The notes beneath the pieces are model-generated. The model did not search any database. It saw nothing but the letters and a program-made list of their open reading frames with translations, and had not been told where the DNA came from. A stretch of 36,675 bases of DNA from an uncultured Cellvibrio sp. (GTDB lineage: Bacteria > Pseudomonadota > Gammaproteobacteria > Pseudomonadales > Cellvibrionaceae), in the NCBI GenBank assembly GCA_903858205.1, contig CAIOHY010000054.1, positions 1-36,675 of the forward strand, in the 5' to 3' direction. Positions 6,941-25,244 of this stretch are shown here, piece after piece. Within the stretch, counting starts at the first letter, position 1; every line of letters begins with the position of its first letter. The position numbers and the translations under genes were made by a program.

Positions 6941-6968
6941 TTTCGGGCTTTATTGAAAGGACTGAATT

Positions 6969-7469
6969 ATGACGTTAAGCGAATTCAATGCACTGCCAAA
7001 AGAAGATGCTATAGCAGCGCTCTACGGTTGTTGCCATTGCCAATTCTGGGCAAAACAGGTTGCTGAGCGGCGCCCTTTTGCAAGCGTGGAAAAATTAATC
7101 ACCACGGCTAACTGTTTTTGGACAGGTGTAGAGGAAGCGCAAATTCTCGAAGCGTTTTCGGGTCATGCCCGCATTGGCGATATCGACTTGCTCCGCTCCC
7201 GTTATGCAGGGCGTGCTACGCAGGAGCAGGGGCAAGTATTGCAGGCGAGTGAAGCCGTTATTCAGAGCTTGTATCAGCTTAATCATGAGTACGAAGCAAA
7301 AAACGGTTTTATTTTTATTGTTTGCGCCAGCGGAAAATCTGCAGAAGAGATGTTGCGTTTACTGCAAGACAGAATCGACAACCCGCGCGACGTCGAATTG
7401 CAAAATGGAGCGCGTGAGCAAGGCGATATAACGCGCTTGCGCATTGCCAAATTAATTGATGGTCAGTAG
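6969..7469 (+). CDS. uraD: OHCU (2-oxo-4-hydroxy-4-carboxy-5-ureidoimidazoline) decarboxylase
   Basis: 166 aa; HARIGD, EYEAKNGFIFIVCASGKSAEEML; adjacent to the HIU hydrolase gene. Confidence 0.93.
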   Translation: MTLSEFNALPKEDAIAALYGCCHCQFWAKQVAERRPFASVEKLITTANCFWTGVEEAQILEAFSGHARIGDIDLLRSRYAGRATQEQGQVLQASEAVIQSLYQLNHEYEAKNGFIFIVCASGKSAEEMLRLLQDRIDNPRDVELQNGAREQGDITRLRIAKLIDGQ

Positions 7470-7487
7470 TGATTGACGGAAAACATT

Positions 7488-7826
7488 ATGAAAAAAGCAG
7501 CTATTACCACCCATATTTTAAATCTCGAAACGGGTAAGCCGGCGGCCAATGTGCGCGTGACTTTACATGGTCCGCATACAGATGCACCTATCGCCACTGC
7601 ATTAACCGATACGGACGGTCGCATTATGCAATGGGAGAATGCGTTTGAATTAGGTGCTGGGGATTATCATTTATGTTTTGCGATAGGCGATTGGTATGCG
7701 CAGCAAGAGCGCAGCAGTTTTTATCCGGAAATCCAAATCTGTTTTAAAGTGATTAATGTAGATGAGCATTATCACGTACCGCTGTTGTTGAATGCCTATG
7801 GCTATTCAACTTATCGTGGTAGTTAG
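7488..7826 (+). CDS. uraH: 5-hydroxyisourate hydrolase (transthyretin-like)
   Basis: ITTHILNLETGKPAANVRVTL ... HYHVPLLLNAYGYSTYRGS*, with the C-terminal YRGS signature; ATG at 7488 preferred over the upstream TTG. Confidence 0.96.
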   Translation: MKKAAITTHILNLETGKPAANVRVTLHGPHTDAPIATALTDTDGRIMQWENAFELGAGDYHLCFAIGDWYAQQERSSFYPEIQICFKVINVDEHYHVPLLLNAYGYSTYRGS

Positions 7827-7864
7827 TATTTCGTGGTAGTTAGTAGTTCGTGGTGATTTGGATT
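7814..7864. repeat. About 3 copies of a 17-bp tandem repeat spanning the uraH stop codon
   Basis: TCGTGGTAGTTAGTATT / TCGTGGTAGTTAGTAGT / TCGTGGTGATTTGGATT. Confidence 0.8.
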
Positions 7865-7905
7865 TTTGATTTTCGCTTTCGTTTTTTCTTGTGTTAAGGC
7901 TGGTT

Positions 7906-9246
7906 ATGACTGCTACAGATGTAAGCGCTTTTCGCGCGCGAATTTTACATTTCACTGATGTGCCTGATCCGCTCACGGGTGCTGGTATTGAATACTTTGA
8001 CGATGGTGTGCTCTTGGTAGAGCACGGCCGTGTCAAAGCGGTTGGCAGTACTGATGATATGGTGCGGCAAGGGCTGGATTTGCAACAGTGCCGCCACACT
8101 CCCGACCATTTATTAATGCCCGGTTTTATTGACAGCCATATTCACTATCCACAAACCAGTGTGATTGCCTCTTACGGCGAACAATTATTGGATTGGCTGA
8201 ATAATTATACCTTTCCGACCGAATTACAATTTTCTGATCCCGATTTCGCTGCCCTAGCCGCCGACGCCTTTTTAAAATTCTTGCTGCAAAATGGCACGAC
8301 TACCGCGATGGTGTACACCAGTGTATTTGCCCAGTCGACGCACGCATTTTTTTCGGCCGCCGAAAAAATGAACCTGCGTATGATCGCCGGTAAAGTGATG
8401 ATGGATCGCAACGCGCCCGCAGAATTATTGGATACGCCTGCAAGCAGCGATGCAGATTGCCGCGAATTGATTGAATGCTGGCACAACACCCGTCGTTTGC
8501 AATATGCGCTCACGCCGCGTTTTGCACCGACCAGCTCACCTGAGCAATTAACCATAACAGGACAGTTGTATCGCGATTATCCCGGCATTTATTTGCAAAC
8601 GCACCTCTCGGAAAACCAACAGGAAATCGCCTGGATAAAATCCCTTTACCCGGGCGCGCGCGATTATTTGGATGTTTATGACCATTACGGCTTGCTGGGG
8701 CCGCGTAGTGTATTTGGCCACGGCATCCATTTAAGTGATGCAGAAGTTGCGCGCATGGCGCAAACACAATCGGGCATTGCATTTTGCCCTACATCGAATT
8801 TATTTCTTGGCAGTGGTTTGCTGAATATGGCGCGTTTGGAGGCCGCTGGTATTCCGGTAAGTCTCGCTACCGACATTGGTGGCGGCACTAGTTTTTCGCA
8901 ATTGCGCACCCTCGCTGAAGCTTACAAAGTATTGCAGCTGCAAGGGCAATGTTTGCATCCATTAAAAGGGTTTTATATGGCTACCTTGGGTAATGCACGC
9001 GCCCTGCAATTGGATCATTGCATTGGTAATTTTGAAAAGGGAAAGGAGGCGGATTTTATTCTTATCAATTTGGGTGCAACACCTTTACAAGCATTACGGC
9101 AATCCAGCGCGCAGACATTGTCGGAAAAATTGTTTGCATTAATGACCCTGGGCGATGAGCACAATATCGCACGCGCGTACATTATGGGTAAATTGGCATT
9201 TCGTCGCACTGAAAGCGCACAGGGAGCATTGGTATGGATGGATTAA
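7906..9246 (+). CDS. guaD: Guanine deaminase
   Basis: Amidohydrolase fold: MPGFIDSHIHYPQ, QTHLSENQQEIAWI, FGHGIHLSDAEV, ATDIGGGTSFS; in the purine operon. Confidence 0.94.
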   Translation: MTATDVSAFRARILHFTDVPDPLTGAGIEYFDDGVLLVEHGRVKAVGSTDDMVRQGLDLQQCRHTPDHLLMPGFIDSHIHYPQTSVIASYGEQLLDWLNNYTFPTELQFSDPDFAALAADAFLKFLLQNGTTTAMVYTSVFAQSTHAFFSAAEKMNLRMIAGKVMMDRNAPAELLDTPASSDADCRELIECWHNTRRLQYALTPRFAPTSSPEQLTITGQLYRDYPGIYLQTHLSENQQEIAWIKSLYPGARDYLDVYDHYGLLGPRSVFGHGIHLSDAEVARMAQTQSGIAFCPTSNLFLGSGLLNMARLEAAGIPVSLATDIGGGTSFSQLRTLAEAYKVLQLQGQCLHPLKGFYMATLGNARALQLDHCIGNFEKGKEADFILINLGATPLQALRQSSAQTLSEKLFALMTLGDEHNIARAYIMGKLAFRRTESAQGALVWMD

Positions 9247-10457
9247 TTAACCCCTTGGTGCTTGAGTGGTTGAATCTCGCCTTTCGCTGGTTTCATGTGG
9301 TCGCTGCCATCGCCTGGATTGGTGCTTCTTTTTATTTTATTTGGCTGGATTTAAGTTTGCGCACACCTCCGCAATGGAAGGCAGATCAAGGTGTGAAAGG
9401 TGATTTGTGGGCAATTCACGGCGGCGGAATTTATGAGGTCGCTAAATACCATTTGCGCCCACCGGAAATGCCGGTGAAATTGCATTGGTTTAAATGGGAG
9501 GCTTACAGTACTTGGTTAAGTGGTACAGGTTTATTGATTTTAATGTACTACTTGCAAGCGCAAACCTATTTGGTGGGGCATAACACGCTGATCCAATCAC
9601 CGGGCTGGGCAGTCGTTGCGAGTGTGGCGTTTATTCTCGGTGGTCAATCTATTTATGAATTGTTATTGCGCACCCCCTTAGTAAAACGCGGTTTATTTAT
9701 TGCTGCAGCGCTGCTCGTGATCATTACCTTGGCGAGTTATATCGCACATCAATTATTTTCACCGCGCGCAGCGTATTTGCATGTGGGAGCCATGATCGCA
9801 ACCTGGATGGCCGGTAACGTGTTCTGGGGGATTATGCCAGCGCAGCGAAAATTTATTGCAGCGGTCAGTAATAATGAAGTGCCGGATACCAATGCGATGT
9901 GTTTTGCCAAGTTGCGCTCTACGCACAATAACTATTTAACCTTGCCCGTTATTTTTTGCATGCTCAGCAACCACTATTCTTTTTTATATAGCCATGCCTA
10001 TTCGTGGCTGGTGTTGGTGGGAATTGGTGTGTGTTTAGCCTGGGGGCGTCACTTTTTTAACTTAAAACATTTGGGACATGTGAAACCGATTATTTTGGTT
10101 ACCAGTTTACTTGGGATTATTTTAATCGCTGTATTGATGTCGATCACCGCGAAAAATTCTGGTGCCGTTGTTGGTGGCAATGAGATTAAATCTAATTCAG
10201 AAGCTGCATCGACAGAGACTGCAAAAATCACCCAGCTCATTCAGGTGCACTGCACTAATTGCCATGCTGCTACACCCTCACAGCCCGGTTTTGCAGCGGC
10301 ACCGGCGGGGTTAATTATTGATTCGGCAGCTGGTCTTGCCGCACAAAAAATTCGCGCCTTGCCCGCCTTGCAATCCGGTTATATGCCGCTAGGCAATTTT
10401 CATCAAATGACCGAGCTTGAGCGTAAATCACTTATCGATTGGCTCAATTCACAATGA
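9234..10457 (+). CDS. puuD: Membrane-bound cytochrome-c-fused urate oxidase (PuuD type)
   Basis: N-terminal multi-TM urate oxidase domain (FRWFHVVAAIAWIGASFYFIWLD) and C-terminal CTNCH haem-c motif; overlaps guaD. Confidence 0.94.
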   Translation: MDGLINPLVLEWLNLAFRWFHVVAAIAWIGASFYFIWLDLSLRTPPQWKADQGVKGDLWAIHGGGIYEVAKYHLRPPEMPVKLHWFKWEAYSTWLSGTGLLILMYYLQAQTYLVGHNTLIQSPGWAVVASVAFILGGQSIYELLLRTPLVKRGLFIAAALLVIITLASYIAHQLFSPRAAYLHVGAMIATWMAGNVFWGIMPAQRKFIAAVSNNEVPDTNAMCFAKLRSTHNNYLTLPVIFCMLSNHYSFLYSHAYSWLVLVGIGVCLAWGRHFFNLKHLGHVKPIILVTSLLGIILIAVLMSITAKNSGAVVGGNEIKSNSEAASTETAKITQLIQVHCTNCHAATPSQPGFAAAPAGLIIDSAAGLAAQKIRALPALQSGYMPLGNFHQMTELERKSLIDWLNSQ

Positions 10458-10478
10458 TATTTTTTTAAGGGAAGGTTT

Positions 10479-10784
10479 ATGGTTGCTTATGTCATTGTCG
10501 ATATAGAAGTTCACCATGCGGAAAACTACAAAGAGTATCTTGCTAAAATAACGCCCACGGTTGCCGCCTGTAACGGCCGCTATCTGGTGCGCGGCGCGCA
10601 GACACAAGTGATCAGCGGCAATTGGCAACCCAAACGTTTGGTGGTGATGGAGTTCCCCGATCGCGCTACCGCCAACCACTGGGCGACCTGTGCCGAATAT
10701 GCCCCCATCCATGCGCTGCGCAATGCGAATGCCAGTGCGAATATGATTATTGTGGAGGGGAGTGTGGATTTCATTGCAAGCTGA
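10479..10784 (+). CDS. DUF1330 family protein
   Basis: MVAYVIVDIEVHHAENYKEYLAKI ... GRYLVRG ... LVVMEFPDRATANHWATCAEYAPI. Confidence 0.85.
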   Translation: MVAYVIVDIEVHHAENYKEYLAKITPTVAACNGRYLVRGAQTQVISGNWQPKRLVVMEFPDRATANHWATCAEYAPIHALRNANASANMIIVEGSVDFIAS

Positions 10785-10855
10785 GTAACTCTTCTCATTT
10801 AGATTTCACTGCACTTGTTACCATCTTGGCACTGAATAGATGCCAGGGTGTCACA

Positions 10856-12178
10856 ATGAATTTTTCATCACTAATAGTGCGATTTTTTGCATCTTTTATA
10901 TTGTTAACGCTTATCTCCTGTGGTGGTTCTGGTGGTGGATCAGATTCCCCTGCACCGGCGAGTCGATCATCAACACCGGCGAGTAGTGAAGCGAATAGTT
11001 CATCAAACAGTTCATCAAATAGCGCTCTGGTTGTTAGCAGCTTGTCTTCATCTTCTGCTTCCTCAACTATTTCTCTTGCCGCGCCACAAAATATTTCCGC
11101 TGTTCCTGCCAATGGCGCGGTGACGCTCACTTGGAATCCAGTGGTTGGTGCAACTGGTTACCATATTTACTACGCATCCGAGCCAAATATTTTAATTAAT
11201 AATATCGCCAGTTTTGATGATGGCACCCGGCTGCAAAATGTAGCTTCACCGCGTGTGATTAACTCATTGCGCAACGATGAGACTTATTATTTTGTAGTGA
11301 CGGCCGTGAGTGCGGGCTCTGAGAGTGTGGCGAGTAGTGAAGTGAGTGCAACACCGGCGCTGATCGATTTGGCTAAACAGCCGACAGCCCAGGAAGTATT
11401 GGTCGTTGAGTTGGTAAATCGCGCCCGCGCCAATCCGGAAGCCGAAGCAACACGTTTGGGTATTGGATTAAATGATGGCATTACCGGCACCCAGCTTACC
11501 GCTACTGCCAAGCAACCACTTGCGCACAATCTATTGTTGATTGACTCGGCGCGCACCCATTCACAGTGGATGTTGGATGCGGATATTTTTTCTCACACCG
11601 GCAACAATAACAGTACCGCCACTGAACGCATGAGCGCAGCAGGTTATGTGTTTTCAGGTAGCTGGACCAGCGGTGAAAACATCGCTTGGGGTGGTACGAC
11701 AGGTTCGAGTATTAGTTTGACCAATTATGCCGCTTCGCAACACGAAGGTTTGTTTAAATCGCCGGGGCATAGAGTGAATACTTTGAATGGCAATTTCCGT
11801 GAGCTGGGTGTTGGTCAGAAGCAGGGCAATTTTTTATCAGATGGCAGAAACTATTTATCTTCCATGCTAACGCAAAATTTTGCGCGTTCCGGTTCAAGTT
11901 TCTATTTAACCGGCGTGGTATACAGCGATACCAACAACAATGATTTTTACGATGTAGGCGAAGGCATTAGTGGTGTCACCATCAGTTTCAATGGAAAGTC
12001 CTATCCTGTGTTCGCGACTGGCGCCTATACGATTCCTGTTAATAATGGCACTTATAATTTAACGATTACCGGTGATGCACTGGGTGCTGCTGTCTACCAT
12101 AACGTGCAAGTCAACGGTGCCAATAGGAAAGTAGATGTTGTAAAAACCGGAAATGCCATTGATGTTGTGAGTCGGTAA
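10856..12178 (+). CDS. Lipoprotein with Ser-rich linker, FN3-like domain and CAP/SCP (Pfam CAP) domain
   Basis: ATG at 10856 gives MNFSSLIVRFFASFILLTLISCGGSGGG (lipobox LISC); FN3-like NISAVPANGAVTLTWNPVVGATGYHIYY; CAP-like LVNRARANPEAE, HSQWMLDADIFSHTG, GENIAWGG, HRVNTLNGNFRELGVG. The tracked start (10622) overlaps the DUF1330 gene and is unlikely. Confidence 0.85.
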   Translation: MNFSSLIVRFFASFILLTLISCGGSGGGSDSPAPASRSSTPASSEANSSSNSSSNSALVVSSLSSSSASSTISLAAPQNISAVPANGAVTLTWNPVVGATGYHIYYASEPNILINNIASFDDGTRLQNVASPRVINSLRNDETYYFVVTAVSAGSESVASSEVSATPALIDLAKQPTAQEVLVVELVNRARANPEAEATRLGIGLNDGITGTQLTATAKQPLAHNLLLIDSARTHSQWMLDADIFSHTGNNNSTATERMSAAGYVFSGSWTSGENIAWGGTTGSSISLTNYAASQHEGLFKSPGHRVNTLNGNFRELGVGQKQGNFLSDGRNYLSSMLTQNFARSGSSFYLTGVVYSDTNNNDFYDVGEGISGVTISFNGKSYPVFATGAYTIPVNNGTYNLTITGDALGAAVYHNVQVNGANRKVDVVKTGNAIDVVSR

Positions 12179-12190
12179 CCGTTTTTTCTG

Positions 12191-13126
12191 TTACACCGGG
12201 TAATGGTGTTCGTGCCAGTGCCGTGCAATTGCATCGCGGCGGCATACCCATACATCATTGTGTTGCAAAATATAGTGGATAAATTTTTCCAGCGCTTGAA
12301 TGCGCCCCGGTCTGCCGATAATGCGGCAGTGCAAACCTATGTTCAGCATCTTGGGGGCAAATTCACCTTCGGCGTAAAGCGCATCAAAGCTGTCTTTGAG
12401 ATAGGTAAAAAATTGGTCGCCACAATTAAATCCTTGCGCCGCTGCAAAACGCATATCGTTGCTGTCGAGCGTATAGGGAATAATTAAATGCGGTTTGCCG
12501 TTATTGATGCGCGCATATTCCTGCGTCCAGTAAGGCAAATCGTCGGCGTAGGAATCCGAGTCATATAAAAATCCGCCTTGCTCTATAACCAATCTGCGTG
12601 TGTTAGGGCTGTCGCGGCCGGTGTACCAACCGAGAGGGCGCGAGCCGGTCACGCGTGTGTGGATTTCAATTGCCGTGCGAATATGTTCGCGTTCAATATC
12701 TTCTGGCATAAATTGGTGGTCGATCCAGCGGTAGCCGTGGCTGGCAATTTCCCAGCCGGATTCAAGCATAGCCTCGACTGCATCCGGGTTGCGCTCCAGT
12801 GCCATAGCCACGCCGTAAATGGTTACCGGCAGTTCATATTTGTTGAACAGGCGATGCAAGCGCCAGAAGCCTGCGCGGCTGCCGTATTCGTAGAGCGATT
12901 CCATACTCATATGGCGCGCTTCAAAGGCGCGTGCGCCGATAATTTCTGATAAAAATGTTTCCGATGCGGCGTCGCCGTGGAGCACGCAATTTTCCGCTCC
13001 CTCTTCGTAATTCAGCACAAACTGCACAGCAATGCGGGCACCGCCCGGCCAGTTGGCCTTGGGGGGATTTTGGCCGTAGCCGAGTAGATCGCGTGGATAG
13101 GATGGAGGGGTGTTGTTATCGCTCAT
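12191..13126 (-). CDS. puuE: Allantoinase PuuE (polysaccharide-deacetylase fold)
   Basis: YPRDLLGYGQNPPKANWPGGARIAVQFVLNYEEGAEN, EIASHGYRWIDHQ, GWYTGRDSPNTRRL; GTG start at 13132 also possible. Confidence 0.94.
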   Translation of the reverse strand: MSDNNTPPSYPRDLLGYGQNPPKANWPGGARIAVQFVLNYEEGAENCVLHGDAASETFLSEIIGARAFEARHMSMESLYEYGSRAGFWRLHRLFNKYELPVTIYGVAMALERNPDAVEAMLESGWEIASHGYRWIDHQFMPEDIEREHIRTAIEIHTRVTGSRPLGWYTGRDSPNTRRLVIEQGGFLYDSDSYADDLPYWTQEYARINNGKPHLIIPYTLDSNDMRFAAAQGFNCGDQFFTYLKDSFDALYAEGEFAPKMLNIGLHCRIIGRPGRIQALEKFIHYILQHNDVWVCRRDAIARHWHEHHYPV

Positions 13127-13142
13127 TCTCACTATCGCTCAT
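13117..13142. repeat. 10-bp direct repeat duplicating the puuE start codon context
   Basis: Plus strand TATCGCTCAT at 13117-13126 and 13133-13142; minus strand ATGAGCGATAgtgagaATGAGCGATA. Confidence 0.75.
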
Positions 13143-13318
13143 GGTTGTTCGGTCGATAAAAGCGCGGTACCAAAACCTTAATCAATACCGCGTGTTTGTC
13201 AAAGCAACATCAAATTCTGTGCCATCGTCCAAGGTTAGCACTTTGTGCAATATCGCCAGTAAAGCCGCAATATTACTGGGCAAAAAAGCATGGCTTGCAC
13301 CAGATTAAAACAAATCTC

Positions 13319-13330
13319 GTCCATTTGGAC
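13319..13330. promoter_or_regulatory. Candidate regulator site 3 (palindrome GTCCA-TT-TGGAC)
   Basis: Between divergent puuE and the exported deaminase gene; matches sites 1 and 2. Confidence 0.5.
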
Positions 13331-13458
13331 AGGATATTGTTGGGGCTAATCCCCAGCTGGCGTGGAATCGCACCTGCTGGTATCACAATTGCATTAGCCT
13401 GCTCTGTCTTGCTCCCCCTTCTCTTTATCAACTTTCTGGTTTTTCAGAGATTCTGCTT

Positions 13459-14958
13459 ATGTCATTGCCTCGTATTCCGACCCTTATCCGCGCAGGGCGC
13501 GGTGCCACATGTGCGGTTTTAGTTGCTTTAAATTGCTTATTGGCTATCTGGAGTTTAGCGGCTTCTGCCACTAGCCCGTCGATAGGTTCAACAACCAGCC
13601 GCGATTGGTTTGAAAAATTCAAAGCGACGGCGAGCGATGAAGACTTGTATCGCTTTTTGTATGCGATGCCCAAAGGTGGTGATTTACACAACCATATTAG
13701 TGGCTCGGTCATGTCCGGTTGGTGGTATGAGGTGGCACTTGCGCAAAAAGCCCATGGCTACCGTTTTTATACCAAGGTACGCATCAATAATTGCCGCGAT
13801 TTCGCCGATAACAATTTTGGTTATCGCCCGTATTTGATGTTGTTCAACAATCTTATGGAATCCACTTATAACCAATTGCCTGACTGCGAAAAAGCAGAAT
13901 ACAAACGTCTGGAAGATCTGGATGAAAAAGAAAAAGCGGGTTGGGTCAATAGCGTAACCCTGAGTCATGACCATGAAGGGCGCGATGAATTTTTTCAAAC
14001 CCATTGGCAGCGATTAGATCAGTTACTTTACAGCCCTTATTTAATTGCGGAAATTCTGTATAAAAATATGGAAGCCTTTGGCGAAGAAGGTTTGATTTAT
14101 TTGGAGACCATGCTGGAAGCGGGCGGCTATTTTAAACCCGACGGTAGCCCGATCAGTGAGGACGAAGCCGTCGCTATATTTCGCCAGCGGCTTGCACAGG
14201 CGGATGCGAAAAAAACCGGCGTTACTGTGCGTTTTCAGGAATCTATTTTACGTTTTGTTCCCAGTGCCGAAGCACAATTGCGCGCGTCTTACGACATAGT
14301 ATCGCGTCATCGCGATTTGTATGTGGCGGTAAATATGGTGGGGCGTGAAGATAACGACAAAGGATATCCGTTGCGTTTTACTCAAACCCTGCGCGAGCTG
14401 CGCCACAAGTACAACAACGTACGTTTGTCGGTACACGCTGGTGAAGTGGACGAACCCAATTCCCATATTCGCGATACCTTAATGCTCGGTGCAGATCGCA
14501 TCGGCCACGGTGTGAATTTAATTAGTGATCCGGAATTGCTGCGTGAGATGCGCCATGGCCCTTATCTGGTCGAAATCAATTTAATTTCTAATTTGCTGCT
14601 CGAATACGTTAGCGATTATGCGCAGCATCCCTTCCCTGAATATTTGCGCTTGGGAATTCCGGTTGCGCTTTCAACGGATGATCGCGGCATGTGGGATTCC
14701 AATATCACTGACGAATTTTTTGTGGCGGTAAAAGAATTCAATTTGTCCTGGGATGAATTGTTGCTGCTCAGTCGCAACTCGCTGCAATACAGTTTTGTGG
14801 AAGAGGATGTAAAAGCGCAGTTATTAAAAACCTACAACACGCGTGTTAGCGCGTTTCAAAAATCGTTTGAGAAAAATGGTGTTGGTAGTTTGAAAAATGC
14901 CAAACCGGTTTCCTATGGTTTTACCTGTAAGCGCTATTCATTGTGTGATTTCAAATAG
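13459..14958 (+). CDS. Exported adenosine-deaminase-like enzyme
   Basis: Hydrophobic N-terminal signal (CAVLVALNCLLAIWSLAASATS); metal motif MPKGGDLHNHISGS; LSVHAGEVDEPNSHIRDTL, RIGHGVNLI, VALSTDDRGMWDSN. Confidence 0.88.
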   Translation: MSLPRIPTLIRAGRGATCAVLVALNCLLAIWSLAASATSPSIGSTTSRDWFEKFKATASDEDLYRFLYAMPKGGDLHNHISGSVMSGWWYEVALAQKAHGYRFYTKVRINNCRDFADNNFGYRPYLMLFNNLMESTYNQLPDCEKAEYKRLEDLDEKEKAGWVNSVTLSHDHEGRDEFFQTHWQRLDQLLYSPYLIAEILYKNMEAFGEEGLIYLETMLEAGGYFKPDGSPISEDEAVAIFRQRLAQADAKKTGVTVRFQESILRFVPSAEAQLRASYDIVSRHRDLYVAVNMVGREDNDKGYPLRFTQTLRELRHKYNNVRLSVHAGEVDEPNSHIRDTLMLGADRIGHGVNLISDPELLREMRHGPYLVEINLISNLLLEYVSDYAQHPFPEYLRLGIPVALSTDDRGMWDSNITDEFFVAVKEFNLSWDELLLLSRNSLQYSFVEEDVKAQLLKTYNTRVSAFQKSFEKNGVGSLKNAKPVSYGFTCKRYSLCDFK

Positions 14959-15302
14959 TTGCGCGTAAATCGAATCAGGGCTTGGTCAATTCAAATAACT
15001 CTGTGCGACTTCAACGATCTTATTGGGGTGCAACATATTGGTTCAAGTGTGCGTGCATGGCGCATTATTTTGCATCAATAAATCGGTGCCCCCATCTACC
15101 TCTAGTGTGTTTCTCTGCGCGTTTTTTTCAATATATAGCCGATCGAACTGTATTTTGAGCAAGTTAAATAATTGAAAAATAAGGAAATTAATATGTATTT
15201 TTTAAAGAGTTAACCGTTTAGACAGGAAATGGCATGGCGCTTGCAATTTCCCGAGCAGCTTTCCTGATACATATTATTAGACACCCTTGGAGTGCATTCA
15301 CT

Positions 15303-17744
15303 ATGACCATACACAAACGTTTTATTCGCAATAAACTCGCGTTGCTTGTCAGCATGGGTTGTGTCGTTGCATCGACACCAGCGTGGTCAGCGGAAGAGAT
15401 TGCAGCGCAAGCTGTTGCGCCTGTAGCGGCGGCCGGTGCAGTGGAAGAAACGCTGGTGATTGGCGACACCATGGGCTTGATGACCAAGCAAGGTAAATCT
15501 GCCTTTGGTTTTAACAAGCCAATAGAGGAAACGCCGCGCAGTCTTAGTACGGTGAGCGCAGACATGATGGAGAGTTACAACATTAGCGATATCGACGATT
15601 TGGTGTTGGTATCGCCGGGTGCTTTCACACAATCTTTCTTTGGTGTTGCAGGTTCGTTGGATGTGCGCGGAACACCCGGTGAAGTTTATTATCGCGGTAT
15701 GCGTCGTGTTAATAATCCGGGTAACTATCCAACCCCGATTGGTGCGTCTGATCGTATCGATATCGTGCGCGGTCCTGCATCGCCGATTTTTGGTCCATCA
15801 AAAATTGGTGGTTACCTCAACTTTGAACCCAAGTCTGCGCGTGTGGAGTCTGGTCAGTATTTTGATAAGGCCGAAGGTCAATTCTCGTTGACGCGCGGTA
15901 GTTGGGACAAAAATATTGTCACCGCCGAAGTTGGCGGCCCGGCAAAAGTAGGCGAGAAAGATCTGGGCTTTTATGTGTATGCGGAAACTGAAAATTCAGG
16001 CTCCTATTACGAAAACTCCGGCACTGACCAAAATATTTTGCAGGCTGCGTTTAATATGGAGCTGTCGCCGTCTACCCGTATTGAATTCGGCGGTATGTAT
16101 CACGAATTTGATGGTAATCAAGTGGCGGGATGGAATCGCCTCACGCAAGATTTAATTGATCATGGTACTTACATCACCGGTTCGCCAACCTCGGTCGATC
16201 TGAATGGTGACGGCGCTAACTCGCCCGATGAATTTGATGCATGGCTGGGAACCAAAGCGAATAACTTTTTTGTTCCTGGTGCGGCCGCAACCGATGCAAG
16301 CATGAGCCCAGCCTGGGCTTTGCAAAATGTAGGTGTCGCAAAACTGGATGGCAGTCAAACAATGGTGGCGGCGGATGACAAATTGATCACCACCGTGGGC
16401 ACCTTTTATTTTGACACTATTCATGAAGCCTCGGATTCCTTCTCTATTACCAACAAAGTGTTCTATGAAGAACTCGAAAACATCAATGAAAATGCCTATG
16501 GCTTCTCCCAGTTTGTAGACAGCTATGTAGTAGAAGATCAGCTGATATTTGAATTTGATGCAGAGCACACCGATTGGTTGGATGCCAGCTATCAGCTCTC
16601 GCCAAGTATTCGTTACACTAATGCCAAACAGGCTGACGATTTTGATTACGAATATTTTGATCGCCGAGATCTAACCAAGCCTTCTTCGGCCTTGGATAAA
16701 AAGTTACTCGCCACTAGAACTGATTCTGATTATGCCAACTATGTTTTGAGCGAGTATACGGATTACGGTGTTGCGGTCTTGGCTGACTATACCATCGCTG
16801 AAAATATTGGATTGTTATTGGGCGGGCGCTATGACGTTATTGATATTGAGTCGACGTCGGTAGGTGGGAAGTTGCATGTGCAACGTCCGGATTTTACTGC
16901 AACGGATACCGATGAAGGTGGCTCATGGACTGCTAGTTTGTCCTACAAAACGCCAATTGGCTTTATCCCCTATGTGACTCGCTCAACCCAATCCACTATC
17001 GTCATGGGGCAGGGTTCGGAAATCGCACCCGGTTTGATTTATGCCGATGGTGATGCAGCAGGTAATGCGCTTGCCGATTCAGAGTTAAAAGAGGCCGGTG
17101 TGAAGGGCAATTTCTTTGATGAGCGTCTCTATGTGTCTGCAGCATATTTTGATCAAACTCGCACGAATTTCAGTGCCCAGGATCAAGTGAGCAACAACAC
17201 CACTCAAAGTGAAGGTTACGAGTTGGAAGGTCGCCTGTTGATTACGGAAGATTTCACCATTACGGCTGCATTGACCCATTTGGAAATTACCAATTTAACG
17301 GCATTGAAAAGTGGCGTTCAATTTGGATTTCTTGGTGCAGGCGATCTGCCCAATGTGTCTGATCCATCGCTCTATTATGGTTATGTGATCAAAGGTTTAA
17401 ATTTGGTTGGCAATGAAGAAGATGCGAAAAAATCCGGTATTCCTGAAAATATGATGAGCATAACCGGCGCCTATAATTTTGGTGATGGTTACAGTATCAC
17501 CGCGAGTGCCGTGCATGCTGATTCAACCTATTCCGGTTTTTCCAAAGCGATTAAGTTGCCCTCCTATACCTTGTTTAACGCGGGCATTTCTTACAGCACG
17601 GATACTTGGGGTGTAAGTTTGCAAGGCAAAAACTTGACGAACGAACGCTACTTCCGCGCGAACTTCCCGGATCTGTTTGGTAGCACAATTGTGTTGCCAG
17701 AATTACCGCGCAGTTTTGTTGGTAAGGTGACTTTCAAATTCTAG
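15303..17744 (+). CDS. TonB-dependent outer-membrane receptor, FhuA/ferrichrome-like architecture
   Basis: Signal MTIHKRFIRNKLALLVSMGCVVASTPAWSAEE; plug domain ETPRSLSTVSADMMESYNISDIDDLVLVSPGAF ... RIDIVRGPASPIFGPSKIGGYLNF; C-terminal beta strand SFVGKVTFKF. ATG at 15234 is an alternative start. Confidence 0.93.
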   Translation: MTIHKRFIRNKLALLVSMGCVVASTPAWSAEEIAAQAVAPVAAAGAVEETLVIGDTMGLMTKQGKSAFGFNKPIEETPRSLSTVSADMMESYNISDIDDLVLVSPGAFTQSFFGVAGSLDVRGTPGEVYYRGMRRVNNPGNYPTPIGASDRIDIVRGPASPIFGPSKIGGYLNFEPKSARVESGQYFDKAEGQFSLTRGSWDKNIVTAEVGGPAKVGEKDLGFYVYAETENSGSYYENSGTDQNILQAAFNMELSPSTRIEFGGMYHEFDGNQVAGWNRLTQDLIDHGTYITGSPTSVDLNGDGANSPDEFDAWLGTKANNFFVPGAAATDASMSPAWALQNVGVAKLDGSQTMVAADDKLITTVGTFYFDTIHEASDSFSITNKVFYEELENINENAYGFSQFVDSYVVEDQLIFEFDAEHTDWLDASYQLSPSIRYTNAKQADDFDYEYFDRRDLTKPSSALDKKLLATRTDSDYANYVLSEYTDYGVAVLADYTIAENIGLLLGGRYDVIDIESTSVGGKLHVQRPDFTATDTDEGGSWTASLSYKTPIGFIPYVTRSTQSTIVMGQGSEIAPGLIYADGDAAGNALADSELKEAGVKGNFFDERLYVSAAYFDQTRTNFSAQDQVSNNTTQSEGYELEGRLLITEDFTITAALTHLEITNLTALKSGVQFGFLGAGDLPNVSDPSLYYGYVIKGLNLVGNEEDAKKSGIPENMMSITGAYNFGDGYSITASAVHADSTYSGFSKAIKLPSYTLFNAGISYSTDTWGVSLQGKNLTNERYFRANFPDLFGSTIVLPELPRSFVGKVTFKF

Positions 17745-17775
17745 GTTAGCATTTGTTTTGCCTCTCGGGTGTTGT

Positions 17776-17808
17776 GCGCAGGCCATTGTTAAAGCCAGTG
17801 GTCTGCGC
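17776..17808. repeat. 13-bp intergenic hairpin (two G-U pairs), no T tract
   Basis: GCGCAGGCCATTG-TTAAAGC-CAGTGGTCTGCGC between the TonB receptor and NUP genes. Confidence 0.65.
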
Positions 17809-17864
17809 CGCAAAAACTCATCGAGTTATTTATTGCGCTCCGAACTTATTACAGGATTTTTCCA

Positions 17865-18986
17865 ATGCAAAAATGTAAACCGGGTTTATTGTCTATTGCG
17901 CTCTTGTCATTATTGTCGGCAGGTCTAATGACAGGTTGTGAAAAGCCTGTAACGGAAACGGCCAATAAGTCTGACGCTAGTGTGCAAACACCCGCGCCGA
18001 TAAAAGTAAAATTTGTGGTAGTCACCATGTTTGAAATTGGTGAAGACTCGGGCGATAAAGCCGGTGAATTCCAGTTGTGGAAAGAACGCCAAAAACTCGA
18101 TACCAAATTTGAATTTCCCAATTCTCACCACGATATTTATATGAATATGGAAACCGGTGTAATGGGTATTGTGACCGGTATGGGCACTGCGCATTCCACC
18201 GCTGCGACTATGGCGCTGGGCATGGACCCGCGTTTTGATTTTTCGGATGCTTATTGGTTGGTGGCGGGCATTGCGGGTATCGATCCGGAAGATGCATCCA
18301 TCGGCTCAGCGGCATGGGCAGAATATTTGGTGGATGGCGACCTCGCCCATGAAATTGATGCGCGTGAAATTCCCGCTGATTGGGAAACAGGTTATTTCCC
18401 GCTGTTTACATCCAAACCCTATGACCCTAAAAAACCTGCGCCGTCAGGTGAAGTTGCGCGCTTGAATCCCGAGCTAACAGAGTGGGCATTTCAATTGACC
18501 AAAGACATTCAGTTGCCGGACATCGAAAGCCTTGAAGCTACGCGCAAACTTTACGTGAATCACCCGAATGCACAGCGCAAACCTTTTGTGTTGAAAGGCG
18601 ATCAGCTTGCGGCCATGACCTTCTGGCACGGTGAGATCTTGAATACCTGGGCGAATAAGTGGACGGATTATTGGACCGAAGGCAAAGGCGAGTTCGTAAC
18701 TTCAGCGATGGAAGATACAGGTACTTATTTGTCGCTTACCTATTTGCACAATATCGGCAAAGTGGATAAAAACCGCGTGCTGGTGTTGCGCACTGGCAGC
18801 AATTACACCATGCCGCCGCCGGGCATAACGGCAGCTGCTAACCTACACGCTGAAAATGAAGGCTATGCTGGATTAGAGGCTTCGTTAGAATCGGCCTATA
18901 TTGTCGGTACGGCGGTGATGGATAAAATTCTGGGTAACTGGGAAGTTTACAAAGATAAGGTTCCGGTGCCGGCGGAATTGAAATAG
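17865..18986 (+). CDS. NUP-family (purine nucleoside permease, Pfam NUP) lipoprotein
   Basis: Lipobox LMTGC; VKFVVVTMFEIGEDSGDKAGEFQLW, GVMGIVTGMGTAHSTAATMALGMDPRFDFSDAYWLVAGIAGIDPEDASIGSAAWAEYLVDGDLAHEID, VLVLRTGSNYTMPPPG. Confidence 0.92.
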   Translation: MQKCKPGLLSIALLSLLSAGLMTGCEKPVTETANKSDASVQTPAPIKVKFVVVTMFEIGEDSGDKAGEFQLWKERQKLDTKFEFPNSHHDIYMNMETGVMGIVTGMGTAHSTAATMALGMDPRFDFSDAYWLVAGIAGIDPEDASIGSAAWAEYLVDGDLAHEIDAREIPADWETGYFPLFTSKPYDPKKPAPSGEVARLNPELTEWAFQLTKDIQLPDIESLEATRKLYVNHPNAQRKPFVLKGDQLAAMTFWHGEILNTWANKWTDYWTEGKGEFVTSAMEDTGTYLSLTYLHNIGKVDKNRVLVLRTGSNYTMPPPGITAAANLHAENEGYAGLEASLESAYIVGTAVMDKILGNWEVYKDKVPVPAELK

Positions 18987-19004: not shown

Positions 19005-20198
19005 ATGTCGCTCGATCAACGCGTCTTCGCATGGCGTGGTCACTACCCTAATCCCCGCGCAGGCTCTGGCAGCCTTGCTGGCTTGCGGCTGGGAGTTAAA
19101 GATTTATTCCATATCGCCGGTTTACCGACCGCCGCAGGAAATCCTGACTGGCTGGCTAGTCACGCGATACCTGAGCACACATCACCGGTAGTGACGCAAT
19201 TGCTCGACGCCGGTGCCGAACTGATCGGCAAAACCCAAACCGATGAACTCGCCTACAGCCTCAACGGATTAAATATTCACTACGGCGCGCCGATTAATCC
19301 GCGCAGCCCCGAGCGTTTGCCGGGCGGTTCATCCAGTGGCTCTGCTGTTGCCGTTGCTGCAGGTGATATTGATATAGGTTTAGGAACCGATACCGGCGGC
19401 TCCATCCGTGTGCCCGCCAGCTACAACGGCCTGTTTGGAATTCGCACCAGCCACGGTTTGATTAGCTCAGAGCAGATGGTACCGCTCGCGCCCTTATTCG
19501 ATACCGTCGGTTGGCTCACCCGTGATGCAAACACCCTCGCGCAAGTCGGCGAGGTGCTATTGCCCGATAATTTATCGCGCAATTTTGAACGCAGCTCATT
19601 GCGCATCGCACTGCTGCTGCCATTACAAAATGGCGCGCTCTGGACGCCCGCTCATAAAGCCTGGCTTAACGAGCAGCCCATGCTGCATGGATTTAAACCC
19701 CAAGGCATTAAATCAGTGATGCTGAATAGCGACTGGCTCACGCGCGCCAGCCAATGTTTTCGCACGCTGCAAGGTCGATCGATTTGGCAAACCCATGGCG
19801 AATGGATCAGCCAAAACCAGCCGACATTTGCGCCGGATATCCACGCCCGTTTCCAATGGTGCGCGACGCTCACCGACGCTGATCAAACAGCGGCAGAAAT
19901 TGAGCGCGCCAGTTTGCAGGCCGACATCGACAGTTGGTTTGCCGATGTCGATTTAATTCTGCTGCCCACCACACCGGGCGCAGCGCCTTTGCTAGGCGCT
20001 GATTTCAATTGGATGGATTCTTATCGCAGCCAACTTATGGGGCTGACCGCGCCCGCAGGCTTGGCTGGATTACCGCAAGTGCATTTGCCGGTGCTGAATG
20101 ATCAAGGCGCGCCCTGCGGTGTGTCGCTGCTCGGCAAGCGCGGTGACGATAAGGCGCTGCTGCAACTGGCAATCGATTTATGTGGTACTCACTCATGA
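19005..20198 (+). CDS. Amidase-signature family hydrolase
   Basis: GVKDLFHIAG, GKTQTDELAYSLNG, RLPGGSSSGSAVAVAAGDIDIGLGTDTGGSIRVPASYNGLFGIRTSHG (Lys-Ser-Ser amidase signature). Confidence 0.93.
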   Translation: MSLDQRVFAWRGHYPNPRAGSGSLAGLRLGVKDLFHIAGLPTAAGNPDWLASHAIPEHTSPVVTQLLDAGAELIGKTQTDELAYSLNGLNIHYGAPINPRSPERLPGGSSSGSAVAVAAGDIDIGLGTDTGGSIRVPASYNGLFGIRTSHGLISSEQMVPLAPLFDTVGWLTRDANTLAQVGEVLLPDNLSRNFERSSLRIALLLPLQNGALWTPAHKAWLNEQPMLHGFKPQGIKSVMLNSDWLTRASQCFRTLQGRSIWQTHGEWISQNQPTFAPDIHARFQWCATLTDADQTAAEIERASLQADIDSWFADVDLILLPTTPGAAPLLGADFNWMDSYRSQLMGLTAPAGLAGLPQVHLPVLNDQGAPCGVSLLGKRGDDKALLQLAIDLCGTHS

Positions 20199-21802
20199 TT
20201 CAACATGGCATTGCCTTTAGTGCGCCGCACGCCCTGGCCTTTACTGCACCCCATCAACAGGCCGCTGAAATCGGCCTGGATGTGTTGCGTGAAGGTGGCA
20301 GTGCGGTGGATGCAATGATTGCTGCGGCGGCTGCCATCACTGTGCTTTATCCGCATATGAACAGCATGGCGGGCGATGGTTTCTGGCTGATCCATAAACC
20401 CGGTGAAGCACCGCGTGCGATCGATGCCTGCGGCTGCGCGGCAGAATTGGCGAGTATCGATTGGTATGGCGACAAGGGCTTCCAGCAAATCCCCAGCCGT
20501 GGCGCGCTCGCGACTGTCACTATGGGCGGCACACTTGCCGGTTGGCAAAAGGCGCGTGACATTGCCGCCGAATCATCACCGCAATTGCCATTAAGCCGCT
20601 TGTTAGCGCCCGCAATTGCGCTTGCTAACCAGGGCATTAAAGTCACTCACAGCCTCGCAGCAGCCAGCCGCAAAGTGCAGATGGAGTTGGCCGAGCAGGC
20701 GGAATACCAGCGCGTATTTATGCCCAATGGCCGCCCGCTGATCGAGGGCGAAACGCTCACCAATCAGGATTTGGCGACCACGCTGACCCGGTTGGTCAGC
20801 CACGGATTGGAGTCGGCTTACAGCGGCGAATTGGCGGGTTTAATCGCCACGCAACTAGAACAACTCGGCAGCCCGCTGCGCTTGTCGGATTTTCAAAACT
20901 ATCGCGCGCAAGAAGTCAAACCCCTCTCGGTGCAAACCCGTTTTGGTCACTGTTTCAATTTGCCCGCACCGACGCAAGGTGTTGCCTCGCTCCTGATTTT
21001 GGCGATTTATGACCGCCTGTTTAAACCCGAATGGGATGAGGCCGCGCGCGTTCATGGTTTGATTGAAGCTACCAAGCTCGCCTTTATCGTGCGTGACCGT
21101 GAAGTCGCCGACCCGCGTCGGCTAAGCGAACGCTGGGATGATTTGTTGGATGATGAACATATCGACCAGCTGGCCTCCGTCATCACCGAACGCGCCTTGC
21201 CTTGGCCACAAGTCGCCGAACCGGGTGATACCGTGTGGATGGGTTGCGTCGATAACACTGGCACTATGGTCAGTTTTATCCAAAGTATTTATTGGGAATT
21301 TGGTTCGGGCGTAGTGATCCCCGGCACCGGTTTGGTGTGGAATAATCGCGGCGTGGGTTTTAGTTTGGAGCGGAATCATCGCAATGCGCTAGCACCTGGC
21401 TACAAACCCTTTCACACACTCAACCCCGCATTTGCACTGTTGAATGATGGCCGCCGTATCAGTTACGGCACCATGGGTGGCGAAGGCCAACCGCAAACAC
21501 AAGCGGCACTGCTCAGCCGCTACCTGTACGATGGGCTCTCGCTCGACGCGGCGATCAGTCGCGGCCGCTGGCTGCTCGGTCGCACCTGGGGCGATAACAA
21601 TCACGATTTAAAAATGGAGCAGGATTTGGTTGAACTAATTGGCAATAATTTGCGCGCGCGCGATCACGCTATTAAAGCGGTTCCCACACTCAGTGAAATG
21701 ATGGGGCATGCAGGTGCGGTTGTAAGTCTCGGCGATGGTAATGCAATTGCCGCGAGCGATCCCCGCAGTGATGGCTTGGGGCTGGCGGAGCAAATTCGAT
21801 GA
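20195..21802 (+). CDS. hpxW: GGT-fold Ntn hydrolase, HpxW-like (probable oxamate amidohydrolase)
   Basis: GGSAVDAMIAAAAAITVLYPHMNSMAGDGFWLIH, Thr-nucleophile region GDTVWMGCVDNTGTMVSFIQSIYWEFGSGVVIPGTGLVWNNRG; no signal peptide; ATGA overlap with the amidase gene. Confidence 0.8.
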   Translation: MIQHGIAFSAPHALAFTAPHQQAAEIGLDVLREGGSAVDAMIAAAAAITVLYPHMNSMAGDGFWLIHKPGEAPRAIDACGCAAELASIDWYGDKGFQQIPSRGALATVTMGGTLAGWQKARDIAAESSPQLPLSRLLAPAIALANQGIKVTHSLAAASRKVQMELAEQAEYQRVFMPNGRPLIEGETLTNQDLATTLTRLVSHGLESAYSGELAGLIATQLEQLGSPLRLSDFQNYRAQEVKPLSVQTRFGHCFNLPAPTQGVASLLILAIYDRLFKPEWDEAARVHGLIEATKLAFIVRDREVADPRRLSERWDDLLDDEHIDQLASVITERALPWPQVAEPGDTVWMGCVDNTGTMVSFIQSIYWEFGSGVVIPGTGLVWNNRGVGFSLERNHRNALAPGYKPFHTLNPAFALLNDGRRISYGTMGGEGQPQTQAALLSRYLYDGLSLDAAISRGRWLLGRTWGDNNHDLKMEQDLVELIGNNLRARDHAIKAVPTLSEMMGHAGAVVSLGDGNAIAASDPRSDGLGLAEQIR

Positions 21803-22620
21803 ATGACTTTTTAAGCCAGTGGTTACCCACCATGATTGCGATGGTGCTGACCGGCGCCTTCGCGGGAATTCTCGCTGGTTTGCTCGGCGTGGGCGGTGGC
21901 ATTGTAATCGTGCCGGTATTATTTTTTGTCTTGCAACATTTTGGTATTAGCGCGGGGACAGCCATGTTAGTCGCCACCGCGACTTCTTTGTTGGTCATCG
22001 TACCCACCAGTATTTCTTCTGTGCGTGCGCATCACAAACGCGGCAATGTGGATTGGGCACTGCTCAAACGCTGGTGGCCATTTATGGTGGTGGGCGTAAT
22101 TGCAGGCAGCGCTTTAGCGTTAAAAGTAAAAGGCGAAGTGACCAGCGCGGTGTTTGGCGTAGTCGCATTACTCGTTGCCGCCAATATGTTATTCCGCGCA
22201 AAAGCTGCACCCATTGCACAGCAATTACCGGGCATGGCAGGGCAGGGTGTGATGGCGGGCACCACTGGATTTTTTTCAGTGATGATGGGCGTTGGTGGCG
22301 GCACTATCGGCGTGCCGCTGTTGACCTCGTGCAATTATCCTCCGCATCGCGCGGTGGGTACTGCCTCCTTTTTTGGTTTATTAATTTCAATTCCCGGTGC
22401 GACCGCTATGTTGCTCGCCGAGACTCCGGCCGACGCACCGCAAGGCATGATCGGCATGGTGAATTTGCCTGGATTTTTATTGATTGTTCCGCTCACCGTA
22501 TTGCTTGCACCAGTGGGCGCCTGGATTGGTTCCAAGCTTGAACCCGTGATGTTAAAGCGCGTCTTCGCGATTTTTTTATGTATCAGCGGTGGGCGTATGT
22601 TGATGCAGCTATTTGCTTGA
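21799..22620 (+). CDS. TauE/SafE (TSUP) family membrane permease
   Basis: GILAGLLGVGGGIVIVPVLFFVLQ and MMGVGGGTIGVPLLTSCNYPPHRAVGTASFFGL; overlaps the GGT-like gene. Confidence 0.92.
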   Translation: MNDFLSQWLPTMIAMVLTGAFAGILAGLLGVGGGIVIVPVLFFVLQHFGISAGTAMLVATATSLLVIVPTSISSVRAHHKRGNVDWALLKRWWPFMVVGVIAGSALALKVKGEVTSAVFGVVALLVAANMLFRAKAAPIAQQLPGMAGQGVMAGTTGFFSVMMGVGGGTIGVPLLTSCNYPPHRAVGTASFFGLLISIPGATAMLLAETPADAPQGMIGMVNLPGFLLIVPLTVLLAPVGAWIGSKLEPVMLKRVFAIFLCISGGRMLMQLFA

Positions 22621-22666
22621 GTTTGAAAAGTTGCTTGAGTTTGAAAAATTGGGTGAGATTAAAAAA
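22613..22666. repeat. About 3 copies of an 18-bp tandem repeat spanning the TSUP gene stop codon
   Basis: TTGCTTGAGTTTGAAAAG / TTGCTTGAGTTTGAAAAA / degenerate TTGGGTGAGATTAAAAAA. Confidence 0.8.
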
Positions 22667-22715
22667 TTTTCCACGATGTGTTTGTGTTTTATCTGTCGCC
22701 GTCAGGAGTCGTTAA

Positions 22716-23972
22716 ATGTCTGATCAGTACACTGTGAGTCCATCGCTTCTGCGGCCTTTTTCTCCACCGCCGCGTTTATTAATGGGGCCGGGGCCGATTA
22801 CGGTTGATCCGCGCGTATTGCGCGCCATGTCTGCACAACTGGTCGGCCAATATGATCCGGCGATGACGCAGTGCATGAATGAAACCATGGCCTTGTATCG
22901 CGGCGTATTCAAAACCAAAAATCAATGGACGTTGTTGGTCGATGGCACTTCGCGTGCAGGTATCGAAGCCGTATTAATTTCACTGATTGAACCGGGCGAT
23001 AAAATTCTCGTGCCAGTGTTTGGCCGCTTTGGTCATCTGCTGTGTGAGATCGCTGAACGCTGCGGCGCAGAGGTGCACAAAATTCACAAAGAGTGGGGCG
23101 AAGTATTTTCGCCTGACGAAATCGAAGCCGCGATTAAACAAGTGCAGCCCAAAGTGCTTGCGATAGTGCAGGGCGATACTTCCACCACCATGTTGCAACC
23201 GCTCGATTACCTCGGTGAAATTTGCGCGCGCCACGGCGTTTTATTTTATTCCGACGGCACTGCATCCATTGGTGGTAATCCGTTTGAAACGGACAAGTGG
23301 CAATTGGATGCAGTCTCCGTCGGTTTGCAAAAATGTTTATGCGGCCCATCCGGTAGTGCGCCAATTACACTTAGCGAAAAAGCGGTTGCCAGTATTCGCA
23401 AGCGCCGCCATATCGAAGCGGGCATTCGCACCGACAATCATATCGCCGGTAGCGGCCGTCGCATTGTCTCCAATTATTTTGATTTGGGCATGATCATGGA
23501 TTACTGGGGCGAAGAGCGCCTTAACCACCACACTGAAGCCACTACGATGTTGTACGGCGCGCGCGAATGCGCTCGTATTTTATTGGAAGAAGGTGTTGAA
23601 AATGCCATCGAACGCCACCGTATTCACGGCAAGGCTATGGCGCAGAGTTTGGCGGCGATGAATCTGAAATTATTCGGCGATCAATCCAACAAAATGCACA
23701 ACGTTGTCGGTGTATATATTCCTGAAGGTGTTGCTGGTGAAGCAGTGCGCAGCAGTATGCTCAACGATTTTGGAATTGAAATCGGCACTTCTTTTGGTCC
23801 TTTGCACGGGAAAATTTGGCGCATCGGCACCATGGGCTACAACGCGCGCAAAGATGCAGTCTTGCAAACGCTAGCGGCTTTAGAGGCAGTATTGCGCCGC
23901 GCCGGACACTCGCAAACGGCAAATGCGGGTGTGGATAGGGCGATGACCATCTACACTCAAGAAGGTTATTAA
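22716..23972 (+). CDS. pucG: (S)-ureidoglycine-glyoxylate aminotransferase-like, PLP class V
   Basis: [79 protein letters not shown]; purine cluster context. Confidence 0.88.
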
Positions 23973-24000
23973 TATTCATGAAGGTAAAGGAGCAGCGCTT

Positions 24001-25068
24001 ATGATTCCTTCTGTAATTCCCGCCGATTTTTCCGGCGTGCCGAAATTAACTGAGCTTGCCTCGCGCGAGTTTTTAGCGGGTTTGCCCAAAGCGGAATTGC
24101 ATATGCATCTCGACGGTGCTTTATCGCCCGCGATGATGTTTGCCCTCGGTCAGCGCAATCAGGTGAGTCTGCCCTACAGCAGCGTGGAGGAAATCGAGGC
24201 AGCCTATCAATTTACCAATCTACAAAGTTTTTTGGATTTGTTATACCAAGGCGCATCGGTACTCAAACACGAGCAAGATTTTTACGACCTCACACGCGAT
24301 TATTTTCTCAAGTGCAAAGCCGATAATGTCCTGCACACCGAATTGTCGTTTGACCCGCAGAGCCACACCGAACGCGGCATTCCTTTCGCAACAGTCATCG
24401 GTGGTATTTTGCGTGCGATGGATGATGCGAAAAAAGATTGGGGCATCAGTTCAAAGTTAGTGATGGATTTCCTGCGTCACTTGAGCGCCGATAGCGCGAT
24501 GAAAACGCTGGAAGAATCTTTGCCTTTGAAAGATAAAATTATCGCCGTAGGTTTGGACAGCTCCGAACTCGGCCATCCACCGAGTAAATTTACGGAAGTC
24601 TTCGCCCGCGCTCGCGCTGAAGGTTATCGCATAGTGGCTCACGCCGGTGAAGAAGGCCCGCCGAGTTATATTTGGGAGGCGATTGATTTATTAAAAGTTG
24701 AGCGCATCGATCACGGTGTGCGTTCCGATGAAGATCCCAAGTTGATGGACTATCTGCGCGAAACCCAAATTCCACTTACCGTTTGCCCACTCTCCAATGT
24801 ACGTTTATGTGTGTTCGACAAAATGGCCGACCACAATTTATTTACGTTAATGGATGCCGGTTTGCGTGTAATGATCAACTCAGATGATCCCACCTATTTT
24901 GGCGGTTATCTCAATGACAATTATTTTGCATTGGCCGATGCGTTTCCGCTAACGCGCGAACAGGCATTGTTATTGGCGCACAATAGTTTTACATCGAGTT
25001 TTATTAGCGACGCTGAAAAGCAAAATTTTATCGCGCAACTAATTAGTTATGCCAAAAGTTTTCACTAG
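24001..25068 (+). CDS. Adenine deaminase (adenosine-deaminase-like family)
   Basis: [89 protein letters not shown]; the SDDPxYFGGY variant fits the adenine rather than adenosine subfamily. Confidence 0.85.
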
Positions 25069-25117
25069 TTTTTTTTGATTTTAATTGAAGGCAAACCAGC
25101 TGGTATGAAGCAAGGGT

Positions 25118-25209: not shown

Positions 25210-25244
25210 AGCCGCAGCGCCTCACTCTATGTCGAGAAAAAACC

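Follow-up and report, generated by a model that had tools for sequence, protein, structure and literature searches.

The 36,675-nucleotide window analysed here, the entirety of contig C54 in a Cellvibrio metagenome-assembled genome (MAG; 92% complete, 4.4% contaminated) whose nearest match is Cellvibrio sp. UBA7671, encodes what we take, with a probability of roughly 0.7, to be a nitrogen-controlled outer-membrane scavenging module for purine nucleosides. In the proposed mechanism, a TonB-dependent receptor (TBDR) would bring a purine nucleoside, or perhaps a small nucleotide or RNA fragment, into the periplasm. There, an exported ADGF-type deaminase would convert adenosine (or AMP) to inosine (or IMP), after which a NUP lipoprotein, a putative nucleosidase with an MTAN/PNP fold, would split inosine or guanosine into hypoxanthine or guanine and ribose. 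In the window, the ABC system would carry the base across the inner membrane; many relatives would use AzgA/xanthine-type NCS2 permeases instead. The base would then be oxidised by way of xanthine and urate to allantoate and, finally, ammonia. Sigma-54 promoters would drive the receptor, the deaminase and the ABC importer. While the parts belong to known families, we did not find their assembly (a TonB receptor with, in relatives, a motor to itself, and sigma-54 promoters serving purine nitrogen) described in the literature searched.

Gene content of the locus

The original prediction drew attention to three consecutive plus-strand genes, for an exported deaminase, a TonB receptor and a NUP-family protein, within a larger set of purine genes. 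All three open reading frames are real (13459-14958, 499 aa; 15234-17744, 836 aa; 17865-18986, 373 aa), their products score above the respective Pfam cut-offs, and the surrounding island does comprise XdhABC, OHCU decarboxylase, HIUase/transthyretin, guanine deaminase, a membrane urate oxidase, PuuE and AllC (Table 1). The ABC importer at the left contig edge is a candidate inner-membrane purine importer; its RbsA-like NCBIfam matches all fell below cut-off. Gene order from NUP to AllC is kept in many relatives. We take the GGT-like protein in this stretch to be similar to the oxamate amidohydrolase HpxW, and the class-V aminotransferase to HpxJ.

Some further genes of the neighbourhood are recorded here in their own right. 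The amidase, GGT-like and TauE genes (19005-22620) come after NUP in many relatives. An exported protein with no Pfam match (27118-28143) is kept beside NUP, hydrolase or deaminase genes in L074, L075, G018 and G021, and a protein with CAP and fn3 domains (10622-12178) lies within the island, between urate oxidase and PuuE.

Table 1. Features of the window, in order of position.
Feature	Position	Strand	Basis or remark
ABC permease, cut by contig end	3-470	-	PF02653
ABC importer ATPase, two ABC domains	424..1971	-	PF00005
Sigma-54 promoter of ABC importer, TGGCATGCAATTTGCT	2025..2040	-	perfect; 53 bp upstream of ATPase start
Second copy of dyad GTCCATTTGGACAG, 0 mismatches	2085..2098	+	44 bp upstream of ABC importer -24 box
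XdhABC, UraD, HIUase, guanine deaminase, urate oxidase, PuuE (base to allantoate)	2216..13132	.	profile searches
Weaker sigma-54-like site ahead of PuuE, TGGCACAGAATTTGAT	13209..13224	-	1 mismatch; conserved in intergenic alignment
Dyad GTCCATTTGGACAG, possible activator site	13319..13332	+	45 bp upstream of deaminase -24 box
Sigma-54 promoter of deaminase, TGGTATCACAATTGCA	13378..13393	+	perfect; conserved
Exported ADGF/ADA2-like adenosine (or AMP) deaminase, predicted	13459..14958	+	PF00962 and motifs
Sigma-54 promoter of receptor, TGGCATGGCGCTTGCA	15230..15245	+	perfect; conserved in Cellvibrio relatives
TonB-dependent receptor, revised start	15303..17744	+	start by orthologue L035
EF-hand-like Ca2+ loop DLNGDGANSPDE in receptor	16197..16232	+	pattern in 22/29 orthologues
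NUP (PF06516), exported lipoprotein, nucleoside-phosphorylase-I/MTAN fold, predicted purine nucleosidase	17865..18986	+	profile and model
Amidase, GGT-like, TauE, class-V aminotransferase, cytosolic adenosine deaminase, AllC, PRTase	19005..27082	+

The deaminase matches PF00962 (A_deaminase) with 128.6 bits, over the cut-off, and carries the HNHISGS and VHAGE motifs first read from its translation. The ADGF model TIGR01431 spans residues 53-466 at 117.7 bits, below its cut-off of 315, and the best PDB match is the Helix pomatia AMP deaminase/ADGF. A hydrophobic N-terminus is found in 40 of 42 long-form relatives, as against 11 of 28 short forms.

NUP as a predicted nucleosidase

The match of the window NUP to PF06516 is full length (387.8 bits against a cut-off of 27), and in the Pfam profile search this was the only family found, with no match to PNP_UDP_1 (PF01048). 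An AF2 model built from 36 relatives (pLDDT 90.3) has one N-terminal hydrophobic helix (residues 8-23) and a soluble alpha/beta body. A multi-TM membrane permease, considered as a candidate, does not agree with a model that has only this single helix. The lipobox proposed earlier is present as MTG-C, with a Met at -3 that is atypical; among 67 NUP relatives, 39 have a lipobox Cys after the hydrophobic stretch and all have a hydrophobic N-terminus.

A fold search of 17865-18986 had been suggested as a check on the function of the protein. Foldseek matched the model to MTAN-type nucleosidase folds in the PDB (586 hits at E<=0.001; best MTAN E 4.9e-11, TMt up to 0.78). The best 50 of these 586 matches are all MTAN-type nucleosidases or futalosine hydrolase, and the alignments of the 50 matches listed cover more than 300 columns at 11-16% identity. 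At the level of sequence, a bridge protein, L119:6905-8008(-), reaches 217 bits against NUP and, over that stretch too, 46.9 against PNP_UDP_1 (cut-off 25.1); its matches to MTAN profiles are weak. Since it passes both cut-offs, it links the two families. An alignment made through this bridge places MTAN residues M173-E174, R193 and S196 opposite NUP M282-E283, R309 and S312, each of which is invariant in 36 sequences, and MTAN E12 opposite the invariant E68, with E57 as an alternative.

When NUP was compared directly with MTAN/PNP, profile against profile, by hhalign, the result was not significant for the set used, a poor one of 22 mostly MTAP-like proteins, and searches of PDB sequences with a single NUP sequence and with the NUP profile returned nothing relevant. 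The case for homology therefore rests on fold, bridge and motifs. Together, these support membership of NUP in the nucleosidase/phosphorylase superfamily and lead us to predict a nucleoside-splitting activity. The original suspicion that "permease" is a misnomer is upheld by the lone hydrophobic helix in a confident model, the nucleosidase fold, the bridge sequence and the catalytic residues. As NUP has already been grouped in the purine/uridine phosphorylase superfamily (PMC9815663), this is a correction and not a discovery.

The same alignment suggests a substrate. The Asp that protonates N7 in enzymes acting on 6-aminopurines, D197 in MTAN, is absent from the window NUP, which has N313 instead; L091 has Asp at this place. 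In trimeric PNPs, Asn at the corresponding position confines the enzyme to 6-oxopurines and Asp widens its range to adenosine (PMC5074518), so that a preference of NUP for inosine and guanosine is predicted. Such a preference would suit an adenosine deaminase acting upstream.

The identity of this residue also bears on two other readings of NUP. In MTAN structural work the same change, Asp to Asn at 197, was made as a mutant (PDB 1z5o), and NUP could accordingly be a catalytically dead lipoprotein that binds nucleosides and passes them to the importer. We think this very improbable given the invariance of M282, E283, R309 and S312 noted above, the fusion of NUP to a nucleoside hydrolase domain in relatives, and the exported PNP-type proteins that share its SN motif (see below). 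That NUP is a phosphorylase releasing ribose-1-phosphate, as membership in the superfamily of DeoD and an Asn at the purine-binding position like that of trimeric PNPs might suggest, is a less distant prospect and still an unlikely one: nucleosidases head the fold matches, MTAN E12 has a Glu opposite it in NUP, and no residue matches the phosphate-site Arg of DeoD. A PfkB kinase, possibly a ribokinase, that neighbours NUP in L051 and, by family, in L054 and L055 likewise speaks for hydrolysis, which we retain as the probable reaction.

Fusions and neighbours of NUP in relatives

NUP is fused to a nucleoside hydrolase (IU_nuc_hydro, PF01156) in L040:11953-14073, where the fusion is Pfam-confirmed, and by family membership in L053:15993-18107; in both, the two domains form one exported protein. 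NUP and a nucleoside hydrolase are separate adjoining genes in L035, G018 and G021. Other architectures include a tandem NUP-NUP fusion in Verrucomicrobia (L087:8799-10829, with an L088 protein of similar length) and a NUP-Cupin_5 (DUF985) fusion in Paraglaciecola (L069:9962-11674 and relatives). Stand-alone Cupin_5 genes also occur near other NUP loci, the L112 copy having a lipoprotein-like N-terminus. In the sister locus L035, an exported PNP_UDP_1 protein is encoded between receptor and NUP, and exported PNP-type proteins of this kind share the SN motif of NUP. No PF01048 enzyme was found in the window's own MAG or in the closed genome G018 of the genus Cellvibrio. We read these fusions and neighbours, together with the RNase T2 and acid phosphatase genes of sister Cellvibrio loci, as further support for NUP as a nucleosidase.

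In 34 of 65 loci, NUP has genes for NCS2 nucleobase permeases nearby, which suggests that in most relatives the cleaved base crosses the inner membrane. No NCS2 permease was found in the window's own MAG, leaving the ABC system as the inner-membrane route. The original proposal that cleavage precedes inner-membrane import thus fits, with the refinement that the base, and not the nucleoside, is probably what most relatives import.

A possible but clearly less favoured reading is that the receptor imports a larger purine ligand, such as oligoribonucleotides or nucleotides, as part of RNA scavenging, with RNase and phosphatase steps coming ahead of deamination and cleavage. Free nucleosides are of a size to pass porins, which makes their active import puzzling and leaves room for a larger ligand. 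RNase T2 genes adjoin PuuE in G018 and G021, L037 has an RNase T2-acid phosphatase open reading frame and L035 an acid phosphatase gene, and ADGF relatives can use AMP, as does the Helix pomatia enzyme. Against this, RNase T2 was not found in the window's own MAG, and most NUP loci are also without it. We keep nucleosides as the preferred ligand.

Promoters and control

The 36.7 kb window was searched for perfect matches to the sigma-54 pattern TGGYAYN5TTGCW. Exactly three were found where 0.37 were expected, a number reached in 1 of 100 shuffles of a simple first-order kind. They lie 53-66 bp ahead of the ABC importer, the deaminase and the probable receptor start, respectively, and RpoN is present. 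Across all fetched loci, sigma-54 sites scored with hand-made weights occur upstream of 26 of 46 receptors compared with 12 of 393 other genes (p 1e-20, a value that ignores shared ancestry). For exported deaminases the figure is 12 of 41, and for NUPs it is 3 of 67. The PuuE family, with 0 of 17, is not enriched for such sites. The site is absent from alphaproteobacterial and verrucomicrobial copies, so that this form of control belongs to the Gammaproteobacteria.

NtrC-like dyads at p<=0.05 are present in 18 of 38 TBDR upstream regions, more than shuffles allow, and the window has one NtrC-like site agreeing with the consensus at 10 of 12 positions. The receptor, deaminase and ABC importer are probably under NtrC or another activator, and the module would be under nitrogen control. 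The dyad GTCYATTTGGMCAG is a lead only, since its two perfect copies in the window are not matched by over-representation once mismatches are allowed.

Other forms of control were considered. The best Fur-like site before the receptor agrees at 11 of 19 positions and is outscored by chance sites elsewhere in the window, and Fur regulation of the receptor was rejected for want of a site above chance. A known riboswitch in the conserved leaders was likewise rejected: Rfam gave only a tRNA above gathering score, and the conserved block holds a sigma-54 promoter.

The receptor and its linkage to NUP

The siderophore-receptor architecture first ascribed to the receptor is borne out by Plug (44.0 bits) and TonB barrel (67.5 bits) matches, both over cut-off. 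Its start is most likely the ATG at 15303 (MTIHKRFIRNK...) and not the ORF-finder start at 15234, because an 86%-identical orthologue in L035 starts there and the stretch upstream holds the conserved sigma-54 promoter. A predicted helix (residues 308-315) comes after the EF-hand-like loop in the receptor model (pLDDT 79); by analogy with BtuB, ligand binding may be calcium-dependent. As a separate observation, L109 (G000:C459) encodes two larger TonB receptors, locally 36-38% identical to that of the window and the first with an STN signalling domain, which come after two open reading frames forming a candidate FecI/FecR pair and stand ahead of an amidase.

A neighbourhood survey, also suggested at the outset, found receptor orthologues near 45 of 65 NUP genes, immediately 5' in 30; about one third of NUP loci are without this TBDR in the fetched flank. 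In a family-level sample of 144 genomes, 32 have NUP and 18 the receptor, all 18 being NUP-positive (hypergeometric P 1e-14 by genomes and 1.6e-5 by genera, both ignoring shared ancestry). Within the genus, the receptor-positive and NUP-positive sets are an identical eight genomes. Several relatives add a private TonB motor: the full operon TBDR, DUF3450, ExbB, ExbB, ExbD, TonB, TPR, NUP occurs in G018, G021, G003 and G135, and in G059 the cassette lies between TBDR and NUP with the TonB open reading frame not called. The DUF3450-ExbB-ExbB-ExbD-TonB-TPR cassette is also found in Neiella and Thalassolituus. The window, with 120 bp between receptor and NUP, has no cassette, and either lost one or never had one.

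These patterns weigh on whether the receptor is simply a ferric-siderophore receptor that happens to be located in a purine island. Its nearest solved relatives by fold and sequence are indeed FhuA, FoxA, Fiu, PiuA and FpvA, and the folds nearest to its model are Fiu/PiuA/FhuA at 13-17% identity. However, identity in the fold table does not exceed 17%, co-occurrence with NUP is strict, the TonB cassette of relatives sits inside a purine operon, and the promoters bear sigma-54 sites and no Fur box. We regard a siderophore receptor as most improbable. The purine-type ligand originally proposed gains support from NUP co-occurrence, the private motor in sister genomes and promoters of the sigma-54/NtrC and not the Fur type. 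No purine-linked TonB receptor was found in the open-access literature searched. On balance, if a little less firmly than for the window itself, we favour the existence of a class of TonB receptors specialised for purine nucleosides or RNA fragments, with their own TonB-ExbBD motor in relatives and sigma-54/NtrC control, paired with exported nucleosidases mislabelled "purine nucleoside permeases".

Significance and comparison with known systems

The substrates known to be taken up actively across the outer membrane are mainly iron, B12, glycans and metals. Nitrogen-regulated purine-nucleoside uptake, if true, would add a substrate class to this list and would explain competition among marine and freshwater bacteria for dilute nucleic-acid nitrogen. 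If NUP were relabelled as a nucleosidase instead of a permease, annotations would be corrected in bacteria, archaea and fungi alike, with consequences for metatranscriptome studies in which COG5042 is counted among the transporters (e.g. PMC2847192).

The window receptor shares its architecture with the ferric-siderophore receptors FhuA, FoxA and PiuA, but differs from them in its lack of a Fur site, its EF-hand-like loop, and a purine operon that in relatives brings its own TonB. The deaminase has in common with ADGF/ADA2-type extracellular deaminases a signal peptide and most of TIGR01431, whereas it is bacterial, scores below the ADGF cut-off and stands in a TBDR operon. With the PNP_UDP_1 superfamily (MTAN, DeoD, futalosine hydrolase), NUP shares the fold, the catalytic Glu and Arg-x-x-Ser; it departs from it in insertions of some 100 residues, Asn for Asp, export and the lack of a PF01048 match.

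The rus locus of Bacteroides thetaiotaomicron reportedly combines a SusC-type TonB receptor with nucleoside-cleaving enzymes. This locus (BT2803-2809; PMC12596196) resembles the window module in its use of ribose from nucleosides. There, however, ribose serves as carbon under RusR, in contrast to the window, where sigma-54 control of the nitrogen type goes with complete oxidation of the purine and no SusD was seen.

Lastly, the name of the family (PF06516) is common to NUP of the window and of Candida albicans, the latter annotated as a permease and the former a single-helix exported bacterial lipoprotein with a nucleosidase fold. Among the Foldseek matches of the window NUP is PDB 1nc1, an MTAN with bound methylthiotubercidin. 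7-deaza analogues resist nucleoside-cleaving enzymes of this type, and for this reason extracellular cleavage by the Candida protein would fit an absence of toyocamycin sensitivity. With Candida albicans NUP, a yeast adenine auxotroph uses adenosine without toyocamycin sensitivity (PMC9431476), a pairing which extracellular cleavage could explain. If so, the permease annotation would be wrong for the whole family, its founding Candida member included.
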